In this document: positions 1,117 through 58,636 of the stretch, one piece after another
How the letters are laid out: every line of letters begins with the position of its first letter
Position numbering within the stretch: the first letter of the stretch is position 1
Source of the DNA: Boletus sp. NGJ
Lineage: Eukaryota > Basidiomycota > Agaricomycetes > Boletales > Boletaceae
Length of the DNA stretch: 64,000 nucleotides
Direction: 5' to 3'
NCBI GenBank assembly: GCA_019096195.1
Contig: JAGTXK010000134.1
Span: 186,001-250,000, forward strand
Made by a program: the position numbers and the translations under genes
Notes under the pieces: generated by a model
What the model was told of the DNA's origin: nothing
Databases searched by the model: none
What the model saw: only the letters and a program-made list of their open reading frames with translations

Positions 1117-1128
1117 CAGTCTAATCCA
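1117..1128 (-). promoter_or_regulatory. Primer-binding site of copy A, self-priming type
   Basis: Two bases after the LTR end the minus strand reads TGGATTAGACTG. The exact 12-base complement lies inside the LTR (plus-strand 1297-1308), about 33 bases after the TATA box, where the transcript should start. This matches the Tf1/sushi scheme in which the RNA's own 5' end folds back as primer. The arrangement is seen in the sequence; the function is inferred from the family. Confidence 0.7.
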
Positions 1129-1130
1129 AG

Positions 1131-1614
1131 TGTTATGAGTCCCTTTCGGAAAGCACACCACAAGGCTCGGAAATGCGTCGCAGGCTACACGTGTCCTGGC
1201 TGAACGAATCAGGTGGGGAGTCTTAGTCCTGGATGTTCCCAACCCTACGACGGCCTGAAGACCGAAGCTAATGGATTGTTGGAGGAAGAGTACAAGTGGA
1301 TTAGACTGGGGATTCCAGTCGTCAAAGTGCTAGTTTATATACATGAAGAGAAGTGCGCACGGACCATGCTGTGCGTGTGATAAATTACTACGTATGGTAA
1401 GACGGAGATTAATAGGGCTGTGTGAGAAGAGCGGAAATTAAAAGGTCGTGGATCACATGAGGTATGATGTCATATGACGTCATAGGTTCTAGACCTGTCA
1501 TGTGATGTGTTCCCACGGTCACGTGCACAGTCACGTGACTTATGAAGAAAAGTTTGAAGAAAATGAAACGTAAGAGATCGTTTGAAAAGTTTGAAAATTT
1601 CCCATATTATTACA
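1131..1614 (-). repeat. 5' LTR of Gypsy copy A
   Basis: About 484 bp, starting TGTAATAATA and ending CATAACA when read on the minus strand, so it has the TG...CA ends of a retroviral-type LTR. It aligns along its whole length with the LTRs at 6697-7175 and 58142-58622. It holds a TATA box (1335-1341 on the plus strand), a TGACGTCA palindrome (1475-1482) and two CACGTG palindromes (1520-1525 and 1532-1537). Confidence 0.9.
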
Positions 1615-4600
1615 ACCACCATTGCCCACCATTTTTAACGACCTCTATTTCGACTCCTACAAAGGCATAGGTGCCCCAGATCTTGGTTGTAAGATACTGG
1701 GAAGTAAGGCACTGAAAGAAGACCGACCTAGGAAAAGGAAAGTTTACCAAAGAAATCCTGACAAAGTCAGACCTCTCTGCCCACCCTCCACATTCGCCCT
1801 ATATTGCATTGCCCACTTTCGCTCTTACCTTTGCCCAACCTCCCTCTTGAAATCCGTAAACAAATATGTCTCGTCTAGACATTGACGAGCTCATTCAGAA
1901 ACTCGCTGACCTCACACAGGAATGCAACAAGGATAATATCACAAAGAAAATTGCCGACCCTGGAAAATGGGATGGCACAAGGTCCACCTTCCACCCATGG
2001 TGGATAAAACTTTGTCTCTGGGTCGACGCGCAGACCTGGAAAAATAATAAAATCATGGACATTGCAGTCCTCTCGCGCCTTGAGGGAAAGGCGGAAAGCT
2101 TTGCTCAGCTTATAATGGAGCACTATCTCAATGAGGAGGCAACCATCGAGACGGACACAAATGGAACCATGCTCCCAGCAAAAGGAGCCAATGCATGGCC
2201 TACATGGAACAGGCTACAGGAACAAATTAAGATGCACTTCTGTATCGACACGTTGGCACACGCGTCTCTAAGAAAACTGGAAACTTTAAAACAAAACAGT
2301 CATCCTATAGACCTGTTTCTACAAAAGTTTGAAATCCTAAGGAAAGAGTTGTACATAGACAATCATCACGCAGAGGTACTCCTCAAAAAGGCTGTAGACT
2401 TTAAAATCTACGAAAGATCACGTCTAAACAGTCTGGCTCAGAACTTTGACTACAAGGATCTAGTCATAAACTACAGAGTAATTGGGAGGGCGTTCGAACA
2501 AATGGTGAACGAATGTGGACCGCCCATCTGAACTCAACCTCCTCGATCATCGTTTCCCCCGCCTCGTGGGCAACCCCCACACAATTCATACCACCCTCAA
2601 TATACGGCAGTGGGTACGCAACCGGGCCGCGGCACCCCAATGGAAATAGATGTCCAACAGGCTGGACCTTCTAAGGACACAAGGACCTGTTTTCATTGTG
2701 GCAAACCAGGCTACATAAAACCAAATTGCCCCATGAACCCGTTTAAAAGAACTGGTTGTCCACCGATGCAAAGACAGATCTGGGATTGGAATCAAGGCTC
2801 GTATGTCGAGCAAACATAGGGAGAAAATGAATATCCCTCATTTTTTAATGAACCCCAAACCAGACAATATGCATCTCGACCTCTTCCACAACCTCCCGTA
2901 GCTACAGCAGCACCAAGTGTAGCAACAAGGACATATGTCTCAGATGAGGCAGAAACATACTATAGAGACAAGTTTGAGGTAGAAGCCAAAGCCAGAGCTG
3001 CATAGGCTTTAAATGGACAGCACCAATGAGTGAAGAGGGAACTCAGTGGCACAAACAATTTTCTGTTTCTTCTTCTCTTATGAACTGTACTAGTAGCGAC
3101 TTCCTGATTTCAGATCTTTCTTCTGTCTTACATAAATTAACAATATAATCCACAAGGGCGTCTCAATTGAGCGTGGCACCGGACATAAGTGTGCTTAATT
3201 CCCTTGTCAAACAACAAAAAATATCTCATATCTATAAACCCACAAAAGTAACATTGAACCAAGCATCTACGTTATCCTATGGTGGAGAATTCTCCCTCGA
3301 AACCATAGTATTGTGCAATGTCAATGGACAGTGGTCACGCTACCATTTCCAATCCCTCTTTGATTCAGGAGCGTCGCATACTTTTATTGATCAGGACTAT
3401 GTCAAACGTCACGGAATTCCTTTTTATACTATTGATAACCCCATAAAGATAATAACGCTGACAGCTCAGAAGGAGCTATCGGACCGATCTGTCACCCGGT
3501 AACTCTGATGGTGGAAATCGAAGGACATTATGAAGTTATAGACGCGTATATATCAAAGTTAGGAATTCATCGCATGATCATCGGTTATGACTGGCTGTAT
3601 CACCACAACCCTGACATCAATTGGGTAAAACAAACAATTACCTTCCCTCATTGCACTTCATACTGTAAAATTATGGGACTAGGACCTACTTCTTCTTACA
3701 AACCAGTCAATCTTCGTACTATAGAGGAAGGACTCAAAGAAAAGGTTCCACTAACTTATCATGAATTTCTAGATGTCTTTTCGAAGAAAGAATTCCAAAG
3801 AATGCCCTTACAAAAACATTGGGATCACGCAATTGATCTCAAAGAAGATTTCATTCCAAAGAAAGGACATGTCATTCCCCTTTCGGACATCGAAATGGAA
3901 GAAGTCAGAACATTTATTGAAAAGGAAGTCAAGAAGGGTTACGTCAAACCTTCAAAATCTGCACAGACATCACCTGTCTTCTTTATTCCCAAGAAAGATG
4001 GTAAAAAATGAATGGTAATGGATTACTGATATTTAAAAGAAGGAACCATAAAAAATTCTTATCCACTCCCTTTGATTCCGCAACTAATTGATAGACTCAA
4101 GAACACAGATCTATTTACAGCAATGGACCCTCGATGGGGATACAACAATGTCTGTATCAAAGAAGGCGACAAATGGAAAGCAGCCTTCGTCACCCCCATT
4201 GGAGCCTATGAACCAACCATAATGTATTTTGGACTTACGAACTCTCCTCCCACATTCCAAACCATGATAAACAATATCTTCAATGACATGTATGCTGTAG
4301 TCGTTATTTACATCGATGACGTCATGATATTTACATCGGGAAAATCCAAAGAACAGCACAAAGAAGTTGTGAAGGAAGTTCTACACTGCTTATGCGAGAA
4401 TGACCTTTACGTAAAACCAGAAAAGTGTACCTTCTTGGCTGATAAAGTGGACTTTCTGGAAATGGTTGTATCTAAAGAGGGGGTAGAAATGCAATTGAAA
4501 AAAGTAGCTGGGGTCATGGATTGGCCAATACCTACAAGATTAAAACAACTTCAAGGCTTCCTTGGACTATGTAACTATTATAGACGATTCATAGAAGGCT

Positions 4601-7175
4601 TCGCGCAAATTACTCGACCCTTGAACAATCTTATCAAAAAAGACGTTCCATTCAAATGGGGTCCAGAACAACAAGAAGCTTTCTCAAACCTAAAAAGAAA
4701 ATTTACGGAAGCACTGCTTCTCACATATCCAAATCGCGATCAAGAAATGCATGTGGAAACCGATGCCTCAGACATCACCACGGGAGCAGTGCTCTCTACA
4801 TTATGCAATGATGGTAACTGGCGACCAGTTGCCTTTATTTCTCACTCTTTTGACAGCGCAGAGCGCAATTACCCCATATACAACAAAGAACTACTAGCAG
4901 TCATTCGTGCTCTCGAAGAGTGGCGACATTATCTTATAGGTCGAGAAAGATTCAAAATCTGGACCAATCATAAAAACTTGGAGTATTGGAAGAAACCCCA
5001 AATGCTTAGCAGACGACAAGCACGTTGGCATGCACTACTTCAAGAATTTAACTATTCCTTTGTTTATAAACCAGGTTTTTCAAATGGAAGAGCTGATGCT
5101 CTTTTCAGAAGACCAGATCATGGTGACGCAGTACAAGATCACAATCAAAATGTTACCGTTCTTCCACCATCCATATTTATAAACCATGTTTCCTTATCTT
5201 TGGACTTCATAACAAAAATCCAAAAAGAATCTAAAAAATATGATGTAGACACCATAAACAATTTCCTCTTCTATTCTGAACTTAGCTTATTCAAAAATGA
5301 AAAAGACAAAATATTTGTCCCCGAACTTTTACATACAGAACTCATTACCTTATGTCATGATTCACCAATAGCAGGACACGGTGGTCATTCTAAAACAATT
5401 CATACACTCTCTTGATACTTCTCGTGGCCAGGAGTCACAAAGGACATAAAAAATTATGTAAATCACTGTCAAGTGTGCGCCCTCATGAAGGGTAAGCAAA
5501 ATGCACCGGCAGGAAAAGTTATCCCTTTACCAGTGGCAAAAAGACTCTGGGAAGATTTATCAGTAGACTTTATAACAGGTCTACCTCCATCACAATCATT
5601 CACTGCTATTTGCATTGTCGTAGATAGATTTTCGAAAGAAGTCATCTTTATACCTACCTATGATATCTGTTCTTCGAAGGACCTCGCAGTTCTATTTAGA
5701 GATCATGTTTGGTCAACACATGGACTCCCCTCAACCCTCGTATCAGACCAAGGACCCCAATTCGTGTCTGCGTTTACCCAAGAGCTTTATAAGCTCCTTG
5801 GTATTAAACAAAAGATCTCCACTGCATATCATCCACAAACAGACGGACAAACAGAGCGCGTTAATCAAGACCTCAAACAATATCTCTGCGCATATGCTGG
5901 AAAGAAACAACACGATTGGGTAGAATGGTTGCTCGCCCAATTCTCACACAATAATACCGTAACAACAGCAACTGGCGAGATCCCATTTAAAGTCACCAGA
6001 AACTACATACCATGTATGGGTTTCGAAGGGCATCTCTCCGGTTTCACAAATGAGGTTGGACGAAATCATAAAGAGATAGAAGAAGCACTGGAAGCTAACG
6101 AGAGAGGATGATCACCTCTTCCGATAAAAAACGATCAACCGCACCCAAATATTCTATTGGTCAGCAGGTCTGGCTATCCACAGATAAATTAAAACTTCCA
6201 TATATGGCAAAAAAGCTTACTCAGAAATGGATTGGTCCTTACATTATCACCTGGATTCTTCCTAACAGTGTAATGCTTAAACTCCCAAATTCTGTTCACA
6301 TTCACCCAACTGTGAACATCTCTCGCGTTAAACTGTATAAAGAAATGTTGCCTGGTCAACCCAAATCTCGACCTGACGCTATAGAGATTGATAAAGAGGG
6401 AGAAGAGCAATTCGAAGTTGATTTTATTGCTGCCTCTCAAATGAAGAAAGGCAAACTAGAATATTTGGTTCACTAGAAAGGTTACGACGATACCAATCGT
6501 ACCTGGGAATCTGAAGAAATTCACATAACTGCACCAGATGCAGTCAAAGATTTCCATCGTCTTAATCCATCCGCATCACACAAGCTTCGTGGTTTATCTA
6601 TTTCAGCATTCGCTTCTCTATTTACTCCTTATGAAAACTTCACCGAAAATGAAAAACAATGACTCGCCTGGAATTCGAGTCTTAAAGAGGGGGTAGTGTT
6701 ATAATATACGAAATTTTCAAACTTTTCATACGAACACTTACTTTTCATTTTCATCAATCTTTTTCTTCATAAGTCACATGACTGTGCATGTAACTGTGGG
6801 AACATATCACATGACAGGTCTAGAACCTATGACATCATATGACATCACACCTCATGTGATCCATGACTCTTTAATTTGCGCTTTTCTCACACAGCCTCTT
6901 TAATCTCCATCTTACTATACTTAGTAATTTATCACACGCACTGCTTGGTCCATGCGCATCTCTCTTATGTATATAAAGTAGCACTTTGATGACTGGTAAC
7001 CCCAGTCTAATCCACTTGTATTTTTCCTCCAACAACTCATTAGCTTTGGCCACTCTGGTCATCATAGGGTTGGGAACAGTATGGACTAAGACTCCCCACC
7101 TCATTCATTGAGCCAGGCTTTGTGTAACCTGCGAACAGTTCAAGCCTTGTGGTTTGTGCTGAAAGGTTCATAACA
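1615..7175 (+). mobile_element. Ty3/Gypsy chromovirus copy B, 5' LTR absent
   Basis: A fossil element of the same family as A and C. It starts inside the leader; the LTR and roughly 350 bases of leader expected before it are missing at this junction. Parts: gag from 1866 with a CCHC zinc knuckle near 2694-2740; aspartic protease around 3362-3395 (DSGASHTF); reverse transcriptase about 3890-4500 with YIDDV near 4309; RNase H about 4730-5110; integrase with an HHCC zinc-binding end and DDE core about 5340-6000; a chromodomain-like tail about 6410-6560; polypurine tract 6684-6696; and the 3' LTR. It has about seven breaks and is CpG-poorer than C, so it looks older. Confidence 0.88.
6697..7175 (+). 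repeat. 3' LTR of Gypsy copy B
   Basis: About 479 bp with TG...CA ends, directly after a purine-rich tract (AAAGAGGGGGTAG). It contains a TATA box (6970-6976) and, 33 bases on, CAGTCTAATCCA (7003-7014), the sequence complementary to the family's primer-binding site. Many positions that are CG in copies A and C are TG or CA here. Confidence 0.9.
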
Positions 7176-7189
7176 CACCTGCACAACCC

Positions 7190-8036
7190 ACTGCACCAGC
7201 ATCACGCAACTCTCATGACTATGACAGACTGTTGTAGGAATACCGAGAACTTCGTGACAGCCACAAGCGGCTTCAAGCCAGTTACATGTGGCTCAAGGAT
7301 CAGTTCGATTCCATGGCGGATAGTCTGGCAACATTTGGCCAGGTTGTGGCCTGGCTATGGGACCAGATTAGTGGGATTGGGAGCAAGATGTTCGTGACAC
7401 ACATACATGAATGTGCTACCCATTTAAATGAATTCCCCCACAGGCCACCTCCAGGGAGGAAGTTCCCAAGCCACCCAACAGGCCATTCGTCCTGACACTC
7501 ACAACTCTTTCTCCCCCCCAATGGCTTCAGCTGAAGGATCACCACCCCTCACTCCACCTGTCACTGCCCCTGACACATTCCCCCGGCATGCCTCCCCCAT
7601 CCCTCCTTCATTGGAGGCCGGTGTCCCTTGGTTGATCGCTCCCTTATCTCAGCGAGGATTGTCGCCTCATAGTCAGGTTGCTCCTGCAGTAACATGGAGT
7701 AGTGGTATGAGCACTAACCCAAATTGGGGTTGGGGCCCTCCATCTCTCTTTCAAACAGGGCCAGCATTGTTCAACCAACTGGCCACACATCAATCCAGCC
7801 TGGCCCTCCCTTCTATCCAAGAAGCTCAGCAACCCTTGGCATGGAGCCTTGCAAGGGCTGTGGCACATCGACTGTCTCCACCCTGGCCTCCACCATCTTC
7901 CCTACCAACAATCACCAGCTTTCGAGAGGTAGAAGGGTCAGCTGAACCAGAGTTGACATTTGAAACAGGGAGTGTGGCCAAGGAGCAGACAGATGGGACA
8001 GCTGGTGAGAGTGGGAAGGGCACGGCCTGTACTTAG
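7190..8036 (+). pseudogene. Unidentified gene, helical start and Pro/Ser-rich tail, broken
   Basis: I do not recognise this gene. Its first part (about 7200-7390) encodes a helical, Leu/Trp/Met-containing stretch (for example SMADSLATFGQVVAWLWDQI) that looks like real protein. A second reading frame, open from 7428 to 8036, is a 202-residue Pro/Ser/Thr-rich low-complexity sequence. The frame changes between the two parts, and a stop lies early in the helical part, so the gene is broken or has an unseen intron. A possible poly(A) signal follows at 8120. It points tail to tail at the gene on the other strand. It may be host or transposon cargo; I cannot tell which. Confidence 0.35.
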
Positions 8037-8119
8037 TTTTACACCGTGTGATGTACAATTCATCTCCCATTTATGTATCCATGCAAAATAGGGTCCATAA
8101 GATGCACAAGTGGAATGTG

Positions 8120-8125
8120 AATAAA
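8120..8125 (+). promoter_or_regulatory. Possible poly(A) signal (AATAAA)
   Basis: AATAAA lies 84 bases after the stop of the preceding plus-strand reading frame. A hexamer like this is common by chance, so it only supports that gene weakly. Confidence 0.25.
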
Positions 8126-8145
8126 GAAGTACTCTCTAGACCTGC

Positions 8146-10689
8146 TCATTTCCTTTTTGGCAGATGTCCGGGTGTGGACAGCTCAGTGTCTGGCAGCAGT
8201 GGTGCCTTGCATGCCCTCCCTGATTGATGTGGGGTTATGCCTTTTTCCAAATTTCTGAGTGAGATGTGATTTAAAAATTGGGAATGCAGCAGTACCTTCA
8301 GGTTGGGTGTGCATCTCAATAGATTTGGCTGGAGTGTGAGCTTAGGACCTTGGCTTTTGGACCCTTGGATTTGTACCACCGTTGGTCTCCACCATATTGA
8401 CCTCGGGAAATGCCTTGCTCATTTTCATCGCTGACTTCAATTTTTTGGGTGGGGATGCTGGGGATGCATTTGGTATGAATGTCCCTGGCCTATCTGGACA
8501 GAAATTTGGCAACCTACCATCGCCGCCATTATCAACCAGGACCAGTCTCTTCATCATGGGCTTCGGTTGAGGATTTTCTTGGGCCATCAGCATCTCATCT
8601 CAGATCCATCGTGGAGAGTCTCCTAGCTGTACATGAAGATACCAATAATCAATAAATTAATATGACGGAGAAATTGCAATGCACCATCTCTTGAAGGTCC
8701 AACCTTCATTTCCCTTAGTCGGCACTCCTCGTCACTCTGGACTATTTGGTCACACCCACTCTCCGTGCGAGGTCTTCTTGCCATTGCTCCTTCCACTGTA
8801 TATGTTGAGTGAATTCGCTGAATGCATTTGTCACCACATACCTTGTTTCAGTACCCCCACCTCAAATGCAACTGATTTCCGAGGTAGGTCACTGACCTCT
8901 TGTTCACTCTCAGACCAATTGCTGTACAGGGCTGATGGACTCCATATCTCCCTCCATTTTCCATTTCTAATCACAGAGTTAGATCAGGCTTCAGCTTTCT
9001 CCTGAGAATTCAATTGATCCATGTTGCATCATCCTGTCCCCAGTTCCGTTCCCGGTCCCAAGGCTGATCTTTTGGTCTCAGTATGGCATTCCGAGATCTC
9101 TGTGGTCGCTTCACCAGTGTCAAGGATTCATCTCCACTGTCTGCTGGGTCCTGCAGCTGGTTTCTTGCATCCAACCAGAATTGGAATGTAAAGATATTAT
9201 CTGGAACATTCTGTTGTTATTTCCGAATGAATTCAAGAAAGTGTCTTGCATCACTCGTATTCATGTGGCTAGGATCATCTGGAAACACAAAATCATCTGG
9301 AAGATGCTCAGATCTAAACAGATCATCCTGGAACTCATGCAGCCTTTTGAACAGTGCCGAAATCTTTGGGTTTTTGCATATCAAGCCTAGATATGGTGAA
9401 TCTTGGCAGGGCAGTCAGATATGAAGGTTACACATGGTAATGTGAGGTGAGAAACCCTCTGATCATGTTCTGCATATTGGCTTGGTTTTGGCCAGTGAAA
9501 TCTGGGATCCAGATGGTACTATCTAACCAGGTTACCATATTCAAAGCATAATCTCCCCATTTCTATCTGGGCTTCCTCTGCTTTTTTGCATCCTCATGGA
9601 TCACATCCTCACCTTCATCCTCACCCTCCCCTCCATCTCTTGCCAGATCAAAACATTGGCCAAGATACCCATCCCACTCCCCCTGGATGGTGTCCAAGCC
9701 CTTGAAAGTTGGGCCATTTTCAATCACTGAGTTGAAGTCAAAGCTTTTCTCTATCAGACACATGGCAGTTTCCAATTAACTAAAGTTGACCTATGTGATA
9801 GAGAATATTTTGCCTTTCTCATCCTTGAATCCAGTCAGTATGGCCATCCGGATCCCTCCCCTCTTCCACATTTCCTGGGTGAACTGCTTCATTACAGAAG
9901 CTACACCCTGGGTTGCATACCTGTACAATATGCAGCGCGTGCAATATCTTCACCTAATAATCACTTACCACACCTTTGCTTCAGTTGAGGCACCTTGCAA
10001 ATTCCATGCGGTGGCAGTTGACTCAGCATCCTTGATTTTATTGGAAGAGAGAGTCTTCACCACCTCTGCTAGCACAGACTGATAGTGCTGAAACATCGCC
10101 GAGGATCCCAGTCAGGCACTGAACTGTTCCTCTATGGTCATCTTGATTTCTTCCTTGCGCTGCTCCTGAATCACAGACCAAGCTGTCCATGTCATCCCAA
10201 GGGTGATGCTTTCCTTCTTCTTTCCTATCCATCCTTGTTTGTGCATCCATTTCAGGTATGTCTTTCTGAAGTTTGGGATCAATTCTTAAAACCATGGCAA
10301 AGCTTTCTCATCCAAAGTTTATGGTCCCACACAACATGCTCCAGGGTTAGGTTTTCCCTCAGTTGCCAGATCTGGCTAACCAGAGCCCTCCAGATTGTCT
10401 GTCATTTCTTATCTTGTGCAGCCTTCCATGATGGCCATTGTTCCTAGAGAATGCATAGCATGGTGTCAGATATGCTGGTGCTTTCATGTTATAATTCGGT
10501 GTGAGATGGCCTGGCCTCATGTTTGGCAGAAACCTCCTTGAGTTGAGGTTCCCCAACCTCCATCTCATCTTCCAAACCATAATAGTTGGTTCCTTGATAC
10601 TTGGTCTTGGCATAATCTTGCGAGCAGTCAGACATAGTAGAGGATAGACGCAGAGTGCAGTACAACCTTTCATTTTCATCCGATATCAT
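8146..10689 (-). pseudogene. Decayed member of a recurring agaricomycete hypothetical family
   Basis: Coding-like segments follow one another on the minus strand in changing frames. They include an acidic start near 10689 (DEMEVGEPQLKEV), a Trp-rich block near 10360-10450 (EQWPSWKAAQDKK), a block around 9850-9930 (KQFTQEMWKRGGIRMAIL), an acidic Glu/Asp block near 9600-9690, and a tail near 9150-9330 (DDPSHMNTSDARHFLEF). The order resembles a hypothetical protein of several hundred residues that I recall being repeated across agaricomycete genomes near transposons. I know no named domain for it. Many stops and frameshifts make it a pseudogene. Its 5' end faces the KDZ transposase gene, with about 740 bases between them. 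Confidence 0.4.
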
Positions 10690-11429
10690 GTTTACAACCG
10701 CTCAATATGCCAAGTAGCCAAGGTTACACAATAACCACAATACCCTCATAAAATGTAACATATCCCTGGGTCTGGTGACCTACTGTGACCTCATTTCACT
10801 GACAGATGGCCTTACATACATGACATGATGCCAGGCACTGAGTAACCAACTTGGTTATATAACACCAGAAATGCTGGGTAAGCTAGCTCCTCTCACTGCC
10901 ATATGTAGTGGTAACAGGCAGGTTGCAAAAAGCTGCATGCAGAGATGGTGGGGATGAGTCTCTGCATATTGCATATTGAACACTGCCTGTCCCAACTACC
11001 TATGGTAATGAGATGAGTTAGCCTATCTAGCATTGCTGGTGTTATTTATCCAAGTTGGCGACTCAATGCCTGGAGAGACTACTACTAGAGCTCATACTCC
11101 CGGCCCCATTGACATAGCCAAGGCCATCAGAGTGTAATACAGTGCAGTATATCCCAAATGGGGCTCAGCCAAGGTTACAGAATTGTGGTAATGCTGCGGA
11201 TGCAGTTGAAGTTCCAACATCCATAGACTCAGCTCTAACTAGCCGAGATGACACACTAAAGTGTCCAAAAAACTGCATGGCTGAACATATGTGTTACTGA
11301 TTTGTGTTATGGCTTGCAGTGTGAAGTATGCTGTATCTGTGTTTTTGATACTACTATACTGTCTTCCATCCCTCTAAGAATGTCAAAGAATGCCTTCAAA
11401 TGAAAGATTAACCCTGCAAGAGTCACTCA
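10690..11429. other. Intergenic stretch between two divergent genes
   Basis: This holds no coding sequence I can support. It separates the minus-strand hypothetical gene from the KDZ transposase and would hold both promoters. It is CpG-poor and contains scattered short direct repeats, but I see no clear terminal inverted repeat. Confidence 0.4.
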
Positions 11430-14400
11430 TGCTAAATGGGTGACAAAAAATACCACAAGGGGGCCCAAGATGACTCTGGTCAGATCGGATGCCACCAAGA
11501 ATGCCACTTCAACAACTCCATCACAATCAGCCCAGTCTACTCCAAGCAAGGCTGGGCCATCCGGCTCTCAGTGCACCTTCGATACCACCTTGTATGTTCT
11601 ATGGCACATTTAAATGCATTGTTCTGACGATATCTGGTCAAGGCCAGATGCAGCCAATTCAGAATTAGATGAGATATGCCCAATCCGACTTCCCCCGAAA
11701 AACATACCCACTCCTGATTTTGATAAACACACTGATCAATATGGTTTTATAGACCTCAACTGATTATCTCCGGAAATGGATCACTCACAAGGAAGAGTTT
11801 CTGCAAGCTTTGTTGGACATGGAAGCGCCATCTCAATCCCGAGAATGTGGTATATGCCATCGAGATGGCATCTATCGGTGTTCTGACTGTTTCGGTCAGC
11901 CCCTGTTTTGCACTGGGTGCTGTCAGGATCAGCATCAGAGGCATCCTTTTCATCGCATCCAGCAATGGACTGGTGCATTCTTTGAAGATTCATCTCTTAT
12001 CTTGGTGCGCTGTGTGAATCATCCCCCAGTTTAACAAAGTTTGAACCATACTGCTGCAGACCGGCTTTGAGCTCTATCTTGGACATGATGGGGGCCCTTG
12101 TCCCAGCAGTGGCAATGAATGTCAAAATGCTTTCGAAGGCCCAGTACCTTTGGATGATGAGGCATGGGAAGACATTGATCAAGAAGACATTCCACCACAC
12201 CTTTGTCCACCAAGCAGAGCAGATTATCTGACTGTGGTTGACGTAACTGATATCCATTTCATGACCGTCAACTATTGCACATGCACCAGATCTGATGTAG
12301 AATATCTTCAACTGTTGCGCTGCAAGCTTTACCCAGCAATGTTACAATGCCAAGGACTGCATTTACCTTTACCTTGCTAGACGACTTTATCCGAGATAAT
12401 TTGGAGTGTGGAACATCCGGAATAAACTATTATGGCAAGCTCTGAAGGATAACCCCCAACGTCTTTCCGCATGTTGTTCCGGTACGTTTCCAACCCAGTC
12501 TGCACCAAATCATCCACTCAGACAGGTCCAGAACTGTTACTGAGAGTTACTTTGGGTCGCCAGACAGTGGAGGCTACTAAAGCTGCTAAAGTGAAATGGC
12601 TTTGGCCACCATTCCTGGGGGCCAACAAAGGGGGATCTTGCCCTTTTTTGCCCTGCCTGTTTGCAACCTGGGATCAATGTGCATGTGTTGGTAAATGAGC
12701 TTTCTGTGTTAGTGACGATTTTCGTTGACTAATGCACTGTTTGACTAACATGCCAATAGCTGGAAGTATTGCCAAACTGTTACCATGGATGGAAACTTCA
12801 AGGCCAAGCATATGTGGAAGAGGTGGTCTGATGACCAAATCTGGCTCATGGATGGCCTTGGCTATATGGTGACTCGGCTAGAGTATCACGAGTATCTGAA
12901 GGAGATATACCACCCTCTGGAGGTAATAGTGCTGTCCAGGAATGCCACATATCTGATGACTGACCAAAGATCAGCAGTCCAGTTGCAACAATCACCAAGC
13001 TGTGAACCAAGCGAATGCCAGCCGAGGCAAGTTGGATGCAATTGGGATCAGAGGTTCTGCATGTGTGTGGCATGGATGCTTTGTGCCACACTTGGTAGTC
13101 AACTTTTAGAAGGGGGAGAGGTAAGCAATATCCAGGGAAGGGTATGCCTGTCACTCAGATCCACACAGACAGGTGAACATGGACTACTCATTCATCCACA
13201 CCCTCACCCACAACATGGACAATGTGTCAAGAATCATAAGTTTCTATGACATCAACTGCTCCTACACGAAGAAGCTCTGAGCTCATCTAAGCAAGAACAA
13301 GTTCATCCAGCTGCCATCAAATGTGGACATTGTGCTGGGCATTGGGATGTGGCACGTGCACGGACATCAATACTCATGTTTCACTCGATATGCCCCCTTG
13401 TTCATTCCTGGGGCAGGATGGGTCGATGGTGAGATCATTGAGACATTGTGGTCTAATCTAAACATTGTGTCTGGGTCTACACGAGGAATGTCCTCCCCCC
13501 ATCGGCAAGAGCTTCTTGACTGCCAAATGAACAATTCCAATTTCATCAAAATGATCTGAATGTGTAAGTCCTTACATTGTGTATTTACCAATGGATCCCT
13601 CCATACTCATTGATGCCAGCCAGAAGTTTGGCAAGGAAGCTAAAGAGCACTCAGAAATCCTCGGCATCGGCCTGGGAGACATTTCATGACCTTGATGCTG
13701 GGGTTCCTGACATTCAGAGGGAACAGTGGCTGAGCCAGGAGAAAAAGGCCATGGAGAGACAACTTGGTGATCCATCAGCAATGGATATATTCGAGGTACA
13801 GTTAGACAAAGGTATGTCAGAAAATGAGGGGCATCCCCAGGGGTCCATTACTTATGCCTCCATGAGTATAGCACCCACCATACAGGCCATAGAGATGGAA
13901 ATGCTTGCAGCTGTCACTCAGACGCCTGGTGTGCACTGTGGAGTGGCAACATGGCTGTCTAAGGGACTGAAACTCAAGGAGGCTCAGATATCACTCTGAA
14001 GAGATATGAAACAGAGAGGATCGAGGGCCACCGAGCTCCAGCTGTTGGCCCTTGCTCACTGAGCTGATCAGCTGGCCACTGAAATGTCACACTTTTTCAT
14101 GGAAGCATCCACATTTTTCCTTTGCTATGAGGATGACAATGATGTACTATTTGATATATTGGATGGGGAGAGTAATGTTGGAGATGAAGATGCAGTTGAC
14201 GACCTCAGAGCTAAATGACCCAATGAGGCAAAGCTGCCATTGCCATCTAACTTGGGTTATGATAGGTGCATGGCCCTGGATGCTCACTACCTTATTAAAC
14301 AGGAGCTTGAGCTTCATGCCAGCCAAGCGAATGATGCCTTACATGAGATCCGGCTCACATTGGCAGACAAGGCAGTATTGTTTCACACTGGCGTTCGGCA

Positions 14401-14984
14401 TGCTGCCAGTCATGCAAAGACCACCTGAGCCTGGGGGAAGGTCAATGCCATGAAAGTGGTTGTCAGTCGGCATGTCACCATATATCAGAGATGCAGATCT
14501 GCCATGGTGCATCTTTCAGCAGATGATGGCATGATGGCTAGATATTAGGTGTTAAAGAATGAAGATCTTAAGGTTAGCACTGCAGTGACCGAGCCCAACT
14601 CCTGCAACCATCGTACAAACAAGCTGGCCTAGTTCTGGTCAATGGATATACTGGGAGACACTGAGATGAACAATTGGATGTCTAAATGTAAGTTCCACAT
14701 TGAAGTGAAAATATCCTGCCGAAATGATGGCGTCCACAGTTTACCGAGTACATTGGTTGCATGCAAAAGCCATGATGGATCAGTGGAAAGAGGAGGAAGA
14801 GCTACTGATGGCTGAGTTCGAATGGACCATCAATTACTTCAACCACAAATCTCATTAGTGGGAAGAGTGGGCAGCACACAGTTGGCAAAAGGATAACCGA
14901 GGACAAGTATACTATGCTGCCTGCCAGCAGGCCATCTATGCTCAGCTTCAGGAGCAGTGTCAGGCAGATTGGGAAAACTGCTGA
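11430..14984 (+). pseudogene. KDZ (Kyakuja-Dileera-Zisupton) transposase, decayed
   Basis: This is the DDE-type transposase of a KDZ DNA transposon. In order: a Ser/Thr-rich start; a CxC2-type cysteine cluster at 11846-11953 (GICHRDGIYRCSDCFG and PFHRI); VNYCTC near 12270; DGNFKA with a first catalytic Asp at 12785-12805; FYDINCSY near 13230; MWHVHGHQ near 13347; IPGAGWVDGEIIETLW at 13404-13451 with the Glu region; ANDALHEIRLTL near 14325; and a helical C-terminus ending at 14982. These blocks and their order are diagnostic of KDZ transposases. Frameshifts and in-frame stops occur throughout, so it cannot be made as written, though some gaps may be introns. It lies beside a TET/JBP gene, a linkage known from agaricomycete KDZ transposons. 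Confidence 0.88.
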
Positions 14985-15121
14985 GCATCACAACGCATGG
15001 AGATGTTTGATAGTAGCCCCATTGCATAAACTGATGTTATGTCATGACAAATGTACACAGCCTGTCCAAACCCATCAGCCATTGTTCAGCCTATTCCGGG
15101 CTCTGTGTGGACTGTTGAATA

Positions 15122-15128
15122 TATATAA
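15122..15128 (+). promoter_or_regulatory. TATA box before the 15187 gene
   Basis: TATATAA lies 59 bases before an ATG at 15187, a typical spacing for a fungal promoter with a short leader. It falls in the 200-base gap after the KDZ stop, so the following frame was probably a separate transcription unit. Confidence 0.4.
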
Positions 15129-15186
15129 CCACACACCCTCCACACTCTGAGATTCATCCTAAACCCCCTTCCTCATTCCTCCTGCC

Positions 15187-15940
15187 ATGGAGACATTTTC
15201 TGACAACACACCCATCATCTCTCTTCACATGATGCTATGATATCAGAAGTGCCGGATCGAAGTGGCTATGGCCCATCTTTTCTGACTTCCAGTGGAGAAA
15301 TGGCCTGCAACTTGGTATGATAACCTGTTCATGGAGTCAGTATGCCTCCTTCATTACACATGACCAATGGGCATTCTGACCATAACAAATGGCAGAACAT
15401 CTTGAGCTTATTCTTAGCACTATATGCACCTGTGCAGACAGTACCCCCACCAACCCCATCATGCACCTGAATCATCAAAGTCAACACCAACCCCGAGAAT
15501 CTGCAACGGGACATCATCTGTGGCATTGAGAGTATCAACCTCGATGGTATCATGTGAACCCAGGAGCTCCTGCCGAACTGGCAGCCCACCACGCATATGC
15601 CCACCTTCAGATTTGAACATCCATGGTGGGTGGACGACATGCTGACCTATCATGAGCAGGTGTTGCAGTTTTTCATTTTGGAATTGTATGAGGGCAGAGA
15701 ACTTCTTTGAGGTATGTACATCAATGGCATCATTATCCTCAGCTCACAGGTCACAAGAATTGTTGGCCAACTGATGAGTCTCCTTTGGACAAGGCCCATA
15801 ATGCTTGGCTGGATGCTCTGGAGGCCAGCATTATGGCCGAGCTTCAGCAAAATCTCACCAAGCTGGCACAGACCGAGGTTACCATGATAGGGTCTCGGGT
15901 CGATATGGTTCAGTTGCAGAAGATGTTTCGGAAGAGTTGA
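15187..15940 (+). pseudogene. Unidentified gene between KDZ transposase and TET/JBP, broken
   Basis: I do not recognise this gene. It looks like protein of about 250 residues in several frames, with segments such as RIEVAMAHLF and VEKWPATWYDNLFMES near 15255-15335, then NLQRDIICGIESINLDGI near 15500, then FRFEHPWWVDDMLTYHEQ and LQFFILELYEG near 15610-15690, and a helical end (QQNLTKLAQTEVTMIGSR) closing at 15938-15940. Several in-frame stops and shifts break it. It sits 200 bases after the KDZ stop, has its own TATA box, and converges on the TET/JBP gene. Its position suggests cargo of the same transposon, but that is inference. Confidence 0.45.
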
Positions 15941-16067
15941 TGACATGCGCTCGCCCAGTGATAGCAAGAAACATGGCACTTTCTACATATTTACAGTTTA
16001 TAGTCCAAGTTTTACCAACTATTCCTCTTTATTGTGGTCCCCAAATTTAATGTTGCATATAATTACA

Positions 16068-17617
16068 TCAGGGAACATCCATGTATTCATGGACATTGTC
16101 CCGCATGTAGTAAGAGAGTACCGCCCACTCCCCCTCTACCTGACCAACTCCATATTCTAGCATTTGCCCCAAGAGTGCGATCACCATGCCTGGTTCATAC
16201 TGAAGCCAATGCATGATGGTTGGAATCATGAAATCCAGCCCAGCGTAGCTGCTGATCAAGATGAGAAGGTCCAACCACTGAGGCCTACCATTTGTGTCAG
16301 TGTGAAATGGACTCACTTGGTTTGCCATGATGGACACGACACTGTAGATAGATGACCACAATGGGAATACCTCCCTCAAATCAGGATTCTCCTATGTAGC
16401 TGCCCTTGCCAAGCCTAACCATTACCTCCTGACCTGTCTCATACATTTCAGGATGCATAATACCAACCAATGCTGCCAGGAGGACCGAATGTTCTTGCAT
16501 GGCAAGTAACCACTGCCGGGTTCCCTGTTCACCCTGGGTAGCCTTTAGCAGTGCCGAGACCTCAGGTGGCCCACTCACCCTCTATTTGCCGAGATCTGGT
16601 CAATGAAGGAGGGCAAGTCAAAAAATACTGATGTTTCGACTCTGCTGAAACCAAGCAGGAGATAGGTTGATCGCCCCCCACAGCTTGGCCCTGGGGTGGA
16701 AGTTTGCCAGGGAGGTTTGCCATGCCTGAGGAGAGCTCCCTGTCAAGCTGTGGGAAAGTGGCCTAGACAAAAGTGGCAGCTGTTCCCAAATGTATCACTA
16801 GTTTGATCCATAAGTGAAAAGGATGGGTTACTTTGCAACAGACGGACTCACTTGATTAGGCTCGCTCACTGCACCAGGTAAATACCAAAGTAAGACATAG
16901 CCCGAATGATCAGTGATGACAGCGGGTTCAGTGAGTTGTCCATAACCCTGAACATTGGCATCCGATGGCTCCATTAAATTCCCCCTCCTCTTCGTCCATT
17001 CACCAAGCCGAATGATGTTGATATTGCCGATTGTCACTAGGTGGGCATTAGTGGAAAATTATCAAAACAGCAAAGGCATACCCTTGTTTTGGTATGCCCT
17101 TGCAATTATGCCGATCATTCTGTCTGCCTCACAAACGGTCGGCATTGGAATTTGTGGGTGGGGAATGCTGTGCTGCATAATGTCATCGGCAGTCTGCAAG
17201 GCTTCCTGAAATCTGGACACCATATAAGTGGCCAATTGATCAGTGTAGGATATGGCCCAATTGTCAGGAATTTCAGGGGAGTTCATGGGGTAGACAAAAG
17301 AAGATGTGAGAAAGTTAGAGAATGCATGATTCCCTGCAGATATAGGATGACATGCTCCCATGGAAACACATGTTTCATATCTTAATCTGGATTTGGGGCA
17401 ATGCACATAGCCCAACCTGAGTTCATCTGGGCCAGAACAAATGTATTGGCCGCAGCATCCTCATAAAATTTAACATATACAGGGGATCGTCGGAATGTGA
17501 ATGTGAGCTACATGGGGTCATAAACTGAAGTTGGTCTGATGCAGCCCACTCGGAGCCATTGGTATGGTATGCACCAAGTAAGATGATGCCTACCCTGTCT
17601 GGTGCCCTTGTATGCAT
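16068..17617 (-). pseudogene. Fungal TET/JBP-family 2-oxoglutarate/Fe(II) dioxygenase, decayed
   Basis: TET/JBP enzymes oxidise the methyl group of 5-methylcytosine or thymine in DNA using 2-oxoglutarate and iron. The N-terminal half shows family blocks near 17037-16870 (RRGNLMEPSDANVQGYGQ, then VITDHSGYVLLWYLPGAVS). The catalytic core at 16379-16068 has SPFHTDTNGRPQWLD, giving the HxD iron pair (His about 16304, Asp about 16298), a YEPGMVIALLG strand, and YYMRDNVHEYM with the Arg that normally holds 2-oxoglutarate (about 16103). Where the family has its second iron-binding His before Gly-Val, this copy has Tyr (about 16154). Frame changes and stops lie between the blocks. It converges on the KDZ gene, matching the known KDZ-TET/JBP pairing in agaricomycetes. 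It is likely inactive. Confidence 0.8.
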
Positions 17618-18475
17618 CGGCAGCCAGACCCACTCACCCTATATGATACCCCTGTACACATCAAGATAAGCGATACCCACCCTGCTCGATCCCCTGGTAT
17701 GCATCGGCAGTCAGTCCCACCCACCCTGCACAGTCCCCCTTATACATCAAGGTAAGTGATATCCACCCTACTTAGTGCCCTCATATGCATTGGCAGTCAG
17801 ACCCACTCATCCTGCATGGCCCTTCTGTATGCATCAAGGTAAGCAATACCCACCCTGCTTGGTGTACTCATATGCATCAGCAGTCAGACCCACTCATTCT
17901 GCATGGTCTCCCTGTATGCATCAAGTTAGACAATGCCTACCCTGTCCAGTGCCCTTGTATGCATTGGCAGTCAGTCACACTCACCCTGTATGGCCCCTCT
18001 GTATACATCGAGGTAAGCAATACCCACCCTGCTCAGTACTTGTATACATCAGCAGTTGGTCACACTCACACTGCTTGGTCCCCCTGTATGCATTGAGTTA
18101 GATGATGCCTACCCTGTCTGGTGCCCTCATATGCATCGGCAGTCAGACCCACTCACCCTGTATGGTCCCCTGTATACATCAAGTTAAGAGATACCCACCC
18201 TGCTTGGTGTACTCATATGCATCAGCAGTTGCTCACATTCACACTGCTTGGCTCCCTTGTATCCATTGAGGTAGGTGATTCCTACCCTGTCCGGTGCCCT
18301 CATATGCCACAGCATTCTGTCACACCCACCCTATCTGGTCCCCTTGTGTGAATCGAGGTGACTAATGCCTACCCCATGCAGTCCCCTCATATTCATCGGC
18401 ACTCGGTAACGCCCACCCTGTTTGGTGCCCCTCATATCCATCAATGTCGGTCACACTCACCCCGCTTGAGGCCCT
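17560..18475. repeat. 87-bp-period minisatellite
   Basis: About ten imperfect tandem units with a spacing of 85-88 bases. The start of each unit (tgcatcggcag and variants) falls at 17612, 17700, 17786, 17873, 17960, 18045, 18132, 18218, 18305 and about 18392. Each unit is itself two related halves of about 43 bases, and the array ends on a half unit. Long open frames run through it only because the period is a multiple of three. It starts at the 5' end of the TET/JBP gene. Confidence 0.9.
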
Positions 18476-18925
18476 TTTGTTTATATTGACACTTCATTTA
18501 GTCACCCTTTCCGTATCCTACGTATGTCCATCTCAGCCAGGCCCAACTGTGTCTCACAGGCCTCATATATCTCAGGCCTGCCACAGGATCAGCTGTATAT
18601 GTCGGGTCTTTTGCAAGCAGGCTCATCATATGCTACGGGGGATTGTGACCACATGATGTGTTATATCCTAGATGGCAGTTGATTGTGAATGGGGCAAAAA
18701 CCTTGCATGAATCATGTTGAAAGTTCTGCACAGATACAGGTGCCTTATTTTGTTGCCCCTTATGCTGCACTGCTTACATTGTGCTCAGGCTCTTGCTCAG
18801 TGTTCTCACTCATTCTCACCTCATGCACCCACCTTGCCCCCTCCTATCAACACCGCCTCCCCACCCTGACCTTGTCATCACATCAGCCATTGTGTGATGC
18901 TGCATACAAGTATGTACAGAGGATG
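18476..18925. other. Unassigned stretch between minisatellite and Plavaka
   Basis: I see no gene, repeat or RNA here. It separates the tandem array from the C-terminal end of the minus-strand Plavaka transposase and probably includes both element boundaries, which I could not locate. Confidence 0.4.
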
Positions 18926-21805
18926 TCAAGAATCTTCACCATCTGAGTCTGTGTCTTGGCAAGCAGGACTTGCATACTCTCCACCATGGTCAATAATGAC
19001 CCACTCCCCTCGAGTCTGAAACTGGCCCACAACAGACTGAATGTTGCGAAGATCAGTTGCAATAGTGGCAAGTTTTCAAGTGTAACTGGTGAGTTCTTTT
19101 GTAGCATCCTTTCCATTTGTCTGACTTGGAGTCAAAAGTGCAGTCACAATTGTTCTTCTAGCAAGTGTCCAGAAAATCCAAGCTTCTGGTAGATCACAAA
19201 CAAGAATTCTTTCGATGTGCCCATAACCCATATGTTTCAGGCCCTCTTTATATTGGACTTCATACTGTATATTGTGCCAGTAAGCCCTGTTCTTTTCTCC
19301 CTAATCTGTGAACCACTTACCCGGATATACGAGGATTCCCGGATCATACCTCTTTGTCACCTTTCAGCAAAACTAGTCCAAATCATGTTACCACCAGAAC
19401 AAATCTGAACCTTGCCCCAAAGTGGCATAATGCTTGGTAGGTGTTTGATTATCTCTGGAATCCGACCACCAATAACCTGTTTCAAATACTCAGTGACCAT
19501 TCTTCTTTCCTCAATATTTGACTCATAAGCTAGCAGCCTTGGATTACAAAGGACATATTGTGCATCTGAGGGAAGTTAATTTCCTGCTAATATTCCTACG
19601 AAATCACATATAGTCCTGAATCCTGTTCACAGGTTCCTCATCTGAAGATACCCCATCCATATCATACTGTGATGATGGTAGTTCCTTGGAGACATTGTAC
19701 CAGGTGCACATCTGCTGAAGGTAAGTGAGATGTAAAATTTGTCTGTTGAGATTCTCCCATAGGTACCGCTTTGACCTCAATGCTTATTTAAGGGTACTGC
19801 AGTAGTGCTCAAGAAAAAATGTCCATGTGGCCCGTGATGGACCACATGCTGCAATATCGTCAGCAACATGAAGGAGTCCATGGATAGGTAAGGTACATGC
19901 AGAAAGGCGATCCTCTTTATGTTGATAGTAGTATCTGGGCCATCTTTTTGTGAGAATCTTACTATGTTTGAACATACATAGACTCACTGCTCATAGCAGA
20001 CTACCCAGTTAATAATGCACCTTCGTAAGTCTCCAAGATTCTGGCAATGAATTGAGAACTGGAGAGTGGTTTTCATGATTGTGATAAGATCACACATATG
20101 ACAGTAGTACTTTTCCTTCTTGAATCGTCTGCAAAGCAGCTCTGGAGCGAGGTGGATGAACCAAAACCCCCAAGATTCAGTAGTGAAGTAAGCCTGGCTT
20201 TCCTTTATATTTCCTAATGCTTGTACGAATGCTGAGGGCATTGTCTGATTTGAACTAGCAGTCTCCTCACCAACCTCCCCCAAATGTGATCTTCAATCTG
20301 ATAGTCCTCCTTTCCTGTTCCTAACCCTTTGAAGATGCCCATCCAGTACTTAACGAGAGTAGGAATTATGTTCTCAAGAAATAGATGCATCCACTCCCAA
20401 GAATATGATCTTGCCAAGTCAATTGAGTTGACTCGATGGCATGATGGTATGTCAATTTTTTTGACCTGAAGCCCTGTTTCCTTCCCAATCATCTCCCAAG
20501 ACTTTCCCAAGGTGACATTCTAAATCTGAATCCGAGTCTTATGGAAGTGTGTGTGTGTGCAAAGGGGAAGAGCATCTCCAACAAAGTAGGGTTGGGAATA
20601 TGGGCTTGGTGTTGTAAGTGGAACATAGTAATTGGTTTTTCTCTGAGTGGAGTTCCGCACGCCAGTAATGAGACATGATCAGTAGGGGCAAAATGCATTA
20701 TGGCTGTGGATATCCAATAATTTCTCAATGGCAACAATATCTCCAAGCTCAAAGATCTTGTAGGCATGCAGTGGAAACATGGAGCAAGTTAATGAGTTAG
20801 AGCTGATGATGCCTTTTGCCAGCTTAACACAATCATCCTCAAAGGGGACTAGGAAGGAGGCAATGTCCTTTGGAGAAGATGGGCTGGGAATAATACCAAT
20901 ACAGATAAGGTTTGCAAGTCGAGTCTGAATGCTTGGAGGGAGATTATAGATCTGAACAAGTATTGGTGTTGCAGATGGTCCTTTTCACTGATGACCAAAG
21001 AGAAGATAGCTATTAGCAGCAAGGGAAAAGGCTGTATCATTTGGATGGGAGAAGAAATGATATGGTTGTTCGACGCCATCAATGATAACACAGGTACTGC
21101 AGAGTTTGTGATATATGTCCCCATCAAACACATCAGATATCTGATTAGAGTGTGTAGATGTTGAATAATGATGGCGGTATAGCAGAGTCTCAACGGTACT
21201 TGGATCATGAAAAAGACCTTTAAGTTGTGCAGCCAGGGAAATATAAGAAAATTGGTGATGAGGATAGTTGTCTGGTGAGCAGTAATGTGGTTGGTTGCAG
21301 TTCAAGCAGTGATCTAGATAGGCATAGAAGGTGGTGGATGCCATACATAAATTAATACAGCAGTCAAAGAGTTTTGGAGTCATCCCTGTTAGCATTTCAA
21401 GCCTATTTTCCACAAGGTATGATGAATCAAGTTCTAACTTGTGTGTGAATGCATGTTGAATTTGTGAGAAGTTTTTTTGGGAGAAATTTCCATTTACATA
21501 CAAGTTGAAAGCTTGGATATTGTCCTGGTCTCGCTTGTTCAACAAGACATTTCCTGAACTTAGTGGTGAGTCTTTGTGCTAGAGACAGCTATTCATTTTG
21601 ACATACATAGGTCATACTGCTTTCACAAGGTTCATTGGGTAATTTGTCTCGTTCTCTGATTCCAAGTCACATTTGTGTTCTCCTTCACTAGACATAGAAC
21701 AATCTGAACAATTTGAGGGCAAAGAGCCTGAAGTAACATCAATGCCTTTGAGTGGATGGGACTCCAAATTAAAAGGTTGGCTGGCTTCATCAACATTCAT
21801 AGCAT
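18926..21805 (-). pseudogene. Plavaka-type transposase 1, decayed and interrupted by Copia
   Basis: Plavaka transposons are large agaricomycete DNA elements of the CACTA-like group. On the minus strand the family's blocks appear in order: QDNIQAFNLYVNGNFS near 21520; LFDCCINLCMAS and CLNCNQPHYC with two CxxC-like pairs near 21370-21280; SDVFDGDIYHKLC near 21150; FELGDIVAIEKLLDIHSHNA near 20720; SWEWMHLFLENIIP near 20390 and FKGLGTGKEDY near 20320; TTESWGFWFIHLAPELL near 20180; IHGLLHVADDIAACGP near 19870; and a C-terminal tail ending at 18926-18928. At least eight stops or shifts break it. The N-terminal side is cut at 21805 by the Copia 5' LTR; sequence beyond 27296 may be its continuation. 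Confidence 0.85.
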
Positions 21806-22201: not shown

Positions 22202-25200
22202 TTTTTCGCACCTCTAAACACACATCAGTAAATTTACATGCATCTTAATCTGGCTTATTCTAGCTAATTCTGCTTGTCAAATTACAAAATATATTCATTA
22301 CTGTGATAATGCATTCCAGAACATTAGAAATATCAACAACAACCAAGCTAATCTATTTTTCAACAAAATGAGGGTTAGAATTTGTCTCTATGTCAGATTT
22401 GGAAATGTTGTGCAAGTCAATAAGTTGAATAAGACAGAATAAGATGCATGTAAATTTACTGATGCAGAAGAAACTTGCAGCTCACCACTTTTACACCAAT
22501 GTCAACTGTTCCTGTCACCACCAATACATTGCCCAACAACATGCCCAAACTTGATGTAAAGGGCACAAATTGGGCAATATTTGCCTTCTGTTTCCAAGTC
22601 ACTGTCGAAGTGAAGGATATGTGGGGGCACTTTGACAGAACTTTCCCTGAACCAAACTATAACACTCCCATGTCAACAATAGAGACTGAGGAGATACAGA
22701 AGTGGCATAAGAACAAAAGCATTTCGAAGCATCTGCTTACCCAGCAGATCCCAGACTCAACTGCACTGAAAATCAGGAAACTCTCCCCTATCAAAGCCAT
22801 GTGTGATGAGATTGTGCGTGAATACACAGAAACGGGAATGTATGCTCAGATAGACTGTGGACGAAGCATGAGGAGCTAGCATCAGTGGGGGTAGACATCA
22901 ACGAAAAGGACTACCGATCGACTATCATCAAGTCGCTACCTGGATCCCTCACAAACTTTGCTTCTAGCCAGTTTGTGACCGCCTGGCTATTTAGCTCCAC
23001 AAAAACAATTGAACCTGACATTCTAATCTCACTTATTAGCGAAGAAGCTGAACAACAAAAGGGAAAGCATGCCACTAAAACAGACACCAAAGACCATGAT
23101 GAAGCAATGGCTGTGACATCGTCCACCAGAGGTAAAGGACGAGGCAGAGGAAAGCATGGCAAACGACTGAAGTGCTTGTGTTGAACCTGTAGATTGGACA
23201 AACATCTAGCTAGAAACTGCACTCAACCCTCGAAGAGCAAGAGCAAACAGAAGGCAGCTCACCTGAGTGGTAGTGCCAATATCGTTGAGCTTGACACCAA
23301 TTCTGAAGATGGCGTATTTGGAGTAATCGACAATGACTATGACAACTTCCTGCTAGACTCATCATCATTGGCATTAGATGAGAGCAAAGACTGGTTCTCG
23401 ATTGTCAAAGAAGACAGTTATCAAAACTGTCAATGGAATTCAGATGAGGAAGGACTTTAAGCAATTGATGTCGGTAACAAACAGACGTTGACCAACCATG
23501 ATGGTCCCTTATACCCCCATGGAGACAACCTAGAAGATGTCGCTCTGGAGATTAGCAATCACCTGCAGAGTCCATGCCACGCCATTTTGTATGACTTGGG
23601 TACTACTTGTCATATCAGCCCAGATTGTGACCACATGCTCAACTTGCAGACAATCCCCCCAAAATCATTCACCACTGCAAATCAGCAGAAATTTAGCACC
23701 ACAGAAGTTGGCGATCTAATCATTGAGATACTGAATGAGCTGGAAACATCCAAGCTGTGACTGACAGAAGTGCTGTACTCACAAGAGGTGGGGTACACAT
23801 TAGTGTCAATCGGCTGACTCAATGAGATGGGTCTCTCAATGACCTTTGCTGAAGGTTTTTGCACCATTCGCGATGCCGAAGGAAAAACAATCGGGCCTAT
23901 ACTGCGATCTACAAAGGGCCTATACTGCATCATACATGAAGAGGAGCACAGTGCTGCTGCCATGGAAAAGATCACCATGATGGAACTACACCATCGCATG
24001 GGCCACATTGCACCATCCGTCGCTCGCCAACTCGCTGAAAAAGGTCTAGTCAGTGGACTTGAATTTGACCTTACTATACCCAATACCTTTTGTGAATCAT
24101 GCATATATGCAAAGGCGACATGAAAACCCATCATGAAGCAACGAGGAGGACCACGCGCTGACAAAACTGGTGATATTGTCTATAGTGATGTCTGGGGACC
24201 AGCGCCAGTTGCCACGCTAGGTGGATGGAGGTACTATGTCACTTTTACCAATGACCATACTCACCTCATCCACCTACACCTGCTGTGCCAGAAAAGTGAC
24301 ACTTTTGAAGTGTACCACAGATTTGAAGCATGGCTTGATTGTCAGCATATAGCGAAGGTGAAAATCCTCCACTCAGATCAAGGGGGAGAATATCAAGGAA
24401 AAGAGTTTACCTTGTATCTCCAACGCCAAGGTACAGCGCACAATACTCCACAGCACAATAGTGTGGCTGAGTGACTCAACTGGACTATCCTAGAAAAATC
24501 CACATGATGTTGCATGCAAGTGGACTGCCAAGGCACCTATGGGAAGAAGCAGTGAGGCATGCTGTGTGGTTAAAGAATCAAACACCTACCAAAGCACTTG
24601 AGGGTCGTTCGCCCTACAAAGTTGTGCTGGGATGCACACCAGACCTAACTCACTTGCAGGAGTGGGGTGCCGTTGTCTATGTCAATACCGGCACTAGAAC
24701 CAAGCTGGGTGGCTGCATTGAGATTGGCTGATGGTTGGGAATTGACAACTGCACGGAAAACACCTGCCATGTCTATTGGCCGTTGAAATGCTCTGTGACT
24801 GTTGAGCGCAATGTGTATTTTGGTGCTGCCCCTAGTGCTGTTAAGGGGGAGGAACCAATCACCACCTTAGGCAACAGTACCTCACCACAGCCACCTGCCA
24901 CACAATCTGTCACACCACCCCCGGCAAATGCCACCAAATGCCCCAGTAATGCCACTACACCACCTACACATGACACCCCCTTGTCACCATTGACACTGCT
25001 CCCATCACCTTTTGCATCCCTGCCACCCACACCTCTCCATCCCTCCATTAATGACCCTGAACTCGAACTGTGCACCAAGCGTCTTCGAAAGCCCACCCAG
25101 CACATACTCAACATTATCACTGGAAAGACCACCTCGACCTTGCTCCTGCATGGCATCCAAGTTCCCAATGTCATCGCCGAACAACCGCCTGCACCACTCC

Positions 25201-58622: not shown

Positions 58623-58624
58623 CT

Positions 58625-58636
58625 TGGATTAGACTG
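58625..58636 (+). promoter_or_regulatory. Primer-binding site of copy C, self-priming type
   Basis: TGGATTAGACTG starts two bases after the LTR. It is the exact complement of 58447-58458, which lies 33 bases after the TATA box. The same pair is present in copy A, and copy B keeps the LTR half. Confidence 0.72.

Follow-up and report, generated by a model that had tools for sequence, protein, structure and literature searches.

TET/JBP genes are greatly expanded beside transposases in some mushroom-forming fungi, and the closest described system to the locus studied here, the TET+ Kyakuja transposons of Agaricomycetes, combines a KDZ-type transposase and an AG-type TET in one transposon that makes 7-bp duplications, ends in CA..TG and lacks terminal inverted repeats (TIRs), according to the main sections of Kojima 2025 (PMC12730594). 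The same sections report further genes in other lineages, namely an alpha-kinase in IS3EU and a third protein in PHISTA, and give none for Kyakuja. A KDZ-TET linkage in agaricomycetes, which the first-pass annotation of the DNA analyzed here had invoked, is therefore in print. We analyzed a 64,000-nucleotide stretch of the Boletus sp. NGJ genome (hereafter the window; positions 186001-250000 of contig C133, in an assembly of 32.8 Mb whose 141 contigs carry C-numbers), in which positions 7176-18660 are the right part of one DNA transposon with a KDZ transposase gene, a TET/JBP dioxygenase gene and three further genes, termed A, B and U, inside its ends.

We consider it very probable (roughly 0.87) that the block is what remains of a large KDZ-superfamily transposon with multiple genes, TET among them, a fossil copy bounded by TIRs, provided with arrays of 87-bp repeats and carrying its genes in the order U(+) A(-) KDZ(+) B(+) TET(-). 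The window copy is old and dead, with stops in its KDZ, TET, A and B genes, and is split by an inserted sequence that is at least partly retrotransposon-like. The first-pass annotation had placed KDZ, gene B (plus strand), TET/JBP (minus) and gene A (minus) in one block, and this grouping is borne out by domains, collinear copies and enclosing ends. The extent given for it, 8146-17617, proved too small: the unit is larger and has a fifth gene, U, on its left that had been missed. Further copies of the element lie on several contigs (DNA search with window 7100-19200 as query; best 13 of 252 candidates, so that copy counts are at least these). All copies and counts reported here come from searches of this one genome against itself.

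The element and TET+ Kyakuja, as far as the latter is described in the sections covered of PMC12730594, are alike in having a KDZ-type transposase, a TET gene (of AG type as judged from the C133 copy) and a 7-bp duplication. They differ in that the window element has TIRs (183 bp compared), CACAT and GAGCC ends and 87-bp arrays, whereas Kyakuja has CA..TG termini and is TIR-less. The element is thus Kyakuja-like by its 7-bp target duplication; in place of 5′-CA..TG-3′ termini we found one CACAT-type and one GAGCC-type end in 10/10 end pairs, and in place of the absence of TIRs stated for the L. bicolor families we found inverted ends that, in the copy on C101, are 88.5% identical over 183 bp. 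Zisupton and Dileera also have a KDZ transposase, and Zisupton also has TIRs, but in the same sections their duplications are given as 8 bp, whereas the longest duplication that is perfect in all four clean pairs here is 7 bp. KDZ-TET transposons are already known, and the recurring companions A, B and U make this an added variant of them. The main sections covered of the Kyakuja description (PMC12730594) do not mention these three genes, and extra genes in such elements appear in none of the other titles and abstract openings surveyed, which does not establish that they are absent from print.

Element Ends and Target-Site Duplications

The left end of the window copy lies outside the window, at C133:176699, because the inserted sequence splits gene U. 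The insert resembles a long terminal repeat retrotransposon at least in part (judged by eye from an integrase-like frame and repeats, over the insert apart from ~6 kb outside the window). Position 7176 was ruled out as the left end of the element, as other copies (C101, C114, C74) extend upstream into the plus-strand gene U. On the right, a terminal inverted repeat with a CACAT-type end (...GATGTG) occupies 18478-18660 and is followed at 18661-18667 by the target-site duplication (TSD) TTATATC, whose partner is at C133:176692-176698, outside the window. The 180-bp terminus itself (18480-18659) has at least 40 matches in the genome (the best 40 of 65 candidates). A subterminal array of ~87-bp tandem repeats lies at 17567-18432. 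Such arrays adjoin both the right end of the window copy and the left end of the C101 copy, left and right being inverted relative to one another, and the C101 and C133 copies have a further, inverted array near the opposite end.

We compared ten inverted-end pairs around the gene block (window, C114, C101, C56, C33, C73a, C73b, C5, C37 and C3), which were matched by position; the motifs CACAT and GAGCC guided the manual placement of the exact ends, and inserts account for the length of some spans. Every pair joins one CACAT-type end to one GAGCC-type end, which reads AAGCC in the window, with base changes allowed in C73b. The 7-bp flanks agree at 7/7 positions in four of the ten pairs (window, C33, C37 and C101), at 6/7 in C73a, at 5/7 in C56, where both differences are compatible with decay of one CpG, at 4/7 in C3 and C73b and at 1/7 in C114 and C5, while 90 mismatched end pairings, used as a control, reached a maximum of 4/7. 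The shared TIRs around all four originally listed genes, which had been proposed as a check on the block, were therefore found when looked for, together with target duplications.

An 8-bp target duplication, first read from C101, was set aside once the ten pairs had been compared. Seven bp is the longest perfect length that fits all four clean pairs; a mutated eighth base is possible. When either end is shifted by one base, 8/8 agreement is obtained in C33 and C101 on the CACAT side and in C33 and C37 on the GAGCC side, the other clean pairs giving 7/8, and the eighth base differs on both sides in the window and in C5 when a second candidate end, discussed below, is used for the latter.

The CACAT-type end lies to the right of KDZ in the window, C33, C56 and C3 and to its left in C101 and C37. 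That the end types are swapped in C101 and C37 despite perfect TSDs suggests inversion of the element interior, and recombination between the inverted arrays could be the cause. For a diverged copy at C133:37-49 kb, no left terminus or TSD was present in the stretch examined.

Recurring Gene Order

The order U-A-KDZ-B-TET recurs in many copies across the genome. Matches were merged into loci (KDZ, 88 to 55; A, 30 to 25; B, 28 to 27; U, 39 to 32; TET, 57 to 33), and a merged hit counted as a neighbor if it lay within 8-15 kb on the side, and had the orientation, that the order predicts. A divergent KDZ gene stands beside A in 22 of the 25 A loci, at a distance of 2,998-4,301 bp; U accompanies 18/25, and TET and B 17/25 each. 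The three A loci without KDZ have other members of the unit, one TET and two U. Nearly all B loci have TET (26/27, leaving one without) and 19/27 have KDZ. Seen from the other genes, TET loci have B in 27/33, KDZ in 20/33 and A in 18/33 cases, U loci have A in 18/32 and KDZ in 16/32, and KDZ loci have A in 22/55 and TET in 19/55. The window is also collinear with a diverged relative at C133:35-49 kb. The first-pass annotation had made its proposal depend on homologues of A and B keeping company with KDZ and TET; within this genome they do, and we encountered neither a general lack of such neighbors nor ends that exclude the two genes.

Several observations weigh against a single multi-gene element. 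Gene A is missing from the expected side of 33 of the 55 KDZ clusters and therefore is not general to KDZ elements; the KDZ loci without A may be other families. In 14/32 U loci the expected side carries no A, and 13 of the 33 merged TET loci have no KDZ match on the expected side. C114 shows no recognisable TSD, and neither does C5 at the end first chosen; C5 has a second high candidate end of CACAT type that gives TGTAGAT on both sides (7/7), an end chosen after the fact, the earlier placement giving 3/7. The copy and locus counts are non-independent, the copies being interrelated and drawn from a single genome; those near C133:43 kb and 61 kb, for instance, look like mutual duplicates. Finally, any activity of the element is putative.

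The TET loci lacking KDZ would be expected if the block consisted of two or more adjacent transposons, one with KDZ and one bearing TET. We regard this as very improbable, given that single end pairs surround the block, that the window and C33, both of which have KDZ and TET, are flanked by perfect 7-bp duplications, and that none of the paired elements has a copy of the terminus (among the best 40 of 65 candidates) separating its KDZ from its TET. The C37 and C101 elements have KDZ and no TET match. Descent within one genome, through which close copies share everything, leaves room for another explanation, in which A, B and U were captured once, as host genes or as chance neighbors, and then passively copied in a single repeat family. 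This too seems unlikely: gene A stays beside KDZ even at 36-41% amino-acid identity (C109:633975, C37:78497 and C65:118830), loci outside the unit are few (3/25 for A without KDZ, 1/27 for B without TET), and the A core, U and the 15692-15937 region of B show an excess of third-position transversions, as described in the following section.

Coding Constraint and CpG Depletion

Substitutions were counted against the C133 copy at codon positions 1/2/3, transversions being summed by hand from one row set per copy, with a slight overlap between the two C73 rows. Transversions number 91/67/145 in the A core, 87/75/165 in the U zinc exon and 27/11/49 in the B 15692-15937 region, and this third-position excess shows signs of past coding constraint in all three. 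The evidence is not uniform. In the U zinc exon and the B region, transitions lack a third-position excess (244/254/248 and 71/60/55, totals in which some copies count twice), which may reflect CpG decay; B exon 2 has no excess of position 3 over position 2 (5/11/11 in the window, 6/11/11 in C42); and the KDZ domain itself gives totals of 122/53/106, so the codon-position measure is noisy. In addition, the frames were picked by tblastn, which favors a third-position excess.

The observed/expected CpG ratio is 0.27 in the window element, 0.43 in the C133 copy, 0.43 in C74 and 0.32 in C101. Since the element is CpG-poor (0.27-0.43), it was not protected in the long run; the CpG decay may be later than the loss of the element's TET. 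The suggestion of the first-pass annotation that a transposon with its own 5-methylcytosine oxidase could shield itself from CpG methylation finds no support in the window copy, which is strongly depleted of CpG and has a broken TET, while the adjoining retrotransposon-like sequence has kept a ratio of 0.67-0.97. Five genome matches to the DNA methyltransferase domain PF00145 exceed the cut-off. Elsewhere in the window, positions 1-7150 and 58139-64000 hold related, retrotransposon-like copies in which CpG decay is slight, next to sequence that has decayed much further (ratios of 0.67-0.97 in the stretches 1-6000 and 58001-64000), and these copies are therefore probably younger than the KDZ element. 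At 38-58 kb, about 20 kb have a ratio of 0.02-0.12, far under the rest of the window.

Genes of the Element

The KDZ transposase gene is broken by stops and runs on the plus strand from 11404 (approximate start) to about 15029, where its frame ends, with the KDZ domain at ~12.97-13.57 kb. A PF18758 match at 13167-13541 (+) (E 5.8e-26, 95.3 bits, cut-off 26.6) places it in the KDZ superfamily, and an exon beside it at 12972-13127 reaches 119 bits when counted with its neighbors. By homology to the C133 copy, the region near 11.8-12.0 kb holds a zinc-binding-like cluster; the C133 copy itself has such a stretch 5′ of its KDZ domain, with matches to PF20632 (E 4e-6) and PF22586 (below cut-off). 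Among the KDZ clusters that lack gene A, several have much higher PF18758 scores and may belong to other KDZ families.

The TET/JBP dioxygenase gene lies on the minus strand at 16032-17286. A PF12851 fragment at 16068-16391 (-) scores below the curated cut-off (E 5.8e-5, 22.8 bits against 34.9), homology to another copy, 55% identical, traces TET over 16032-16718 and reveals 6 stops, and a further exon reaches a Met at ~17286; when the genome was searched with the TET model, the window copy was not among the matches listed. In a search of PDB sequences, the TET of the C133 copy matched CcTet of Coprinopsis cinerea (PDB 7vpn, 8jkk) with E 4e-16, and by eye it keeps HxD and the Asp at Kojima's D337. 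This relation to CcTet, together with its HxD...H metal ligands, fits the AG type. The window TET, whose relation to CcTet was searched only through the C133 copy, keeps HxD but contains stops, and Tyr stands in place of its distal metal-binding His; among 11 aligned copies, read by eye, that position is His in 8, Tyr in 2 (window and C128) and Arg in 1 (C97).

Gene B is small and uncharacterised. In an alignment of five copies it extends on the plus strand from an ATG at 15187 to a stop at 15938-15940, with putative introns at 15340-15395 and, tentatively, 15712-15757. In the window its 15692-15937 frame is open; upstream of this frame, stops occur together with a gap of 2 bases when compared with C133 and C42. 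No Pfam match was found for it (the plus frame being scanned as spliced B only). The TATA box TATATATAA that the first-pass annotation had assigned to this gene is present in the alignment at 15120-15128 (+), with TATATAA intact in three of the five copies (window, C133 and C97), altered in C42 and degraded in C129. Its suggested membership of the mobile unit likewise stands, as the shared ends enclose it and TET is so regularly beside it. Because B sits directly between KDZ and TET, in the same sense as KDZ, it might be a mere 3′ exon of one of these genes. We think this quite improbable: the KDZ frame is over before the TATA box and a conserved ATG are reached, and B is antisense to TET.

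Gene A, also uncharacterised, occupies 8146-10689 on the minus strand, divergent from the transposase as had been noted, and its proposed place in the mobile unit agrees with the enclosing ends and with KDZ beside 22 of its 25 loci. It is best conserved at 9129-10649, where its pieces match the diverged collinear relative, and weaker in its 3′ part towards 8149; the N-terminal exon can be assigned a reading frame only tentatively. The most diverged copies detected share 36% identity with the query. Neither its four pieces nor spliced A matched Pfam, no match was found among PDB sequences, and a search of IMG/VR with the A core, by a method for close relatives, gave none that was confirmed. A-like proteins presumably occur in other mushrooms.

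The 3′ part of gene U, at 7176-8036 (+), encodes part of a zinc-cluster-like protein; the 5′ part, with its Cys cluster, lies beyond the insert at C133:179443-179960. U begins with MPSTIQTI in C101, C114 and C133, and the pattern C-x2-C-x6-C-x7-C-x2-C-x6-C occurs in the C133 and C114 copies. Spliced U matched only Zn_clus (PF00172) in Pfam, below the cut-off (E 0.022), and the unspliced piece matched no Pfam family.

Possible Roles of the Accessory Genes

The KDZ protein would cut and paste the element, and TET would oxidise 5-methylcytosine and thereby leave the element expressible. U, A and B would be retained accessory proteins, U being probably DNA-binding. A more specific scheme, possible but doubtful at present, is that the extra genes act as a targeting module for sequence-specific self-desilencing, U recognizing the 87-bp arrays at the two ends, on its own or jointly with A and B, and recruiting TET to them. 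Plant Vandal (MuDR) elements, with their sequence-specific anti-silencing protein, may serve as a working analogy for such self-countered silencing; no TET is mentioned for them in the sections covered of PMC12730594. As to what directs TET to its own element, the three genes and the paired arrays offer concrete candidate partners, and the question could be addressed in a fungus that harbors living copies.

Other Repeats in the Window

Two further inverted repeats lie to the right of the element. Arms at 28353-28505 and 38067-38219 (153 nt, 93% complementary, 9.6 kb apart) are possibly the ends of another transposon, and a pair at 22223-22260 and 22427-22464 (38 nt, 95%, 166 nt apart) resembles a miniature inverted-repeat transposable element.

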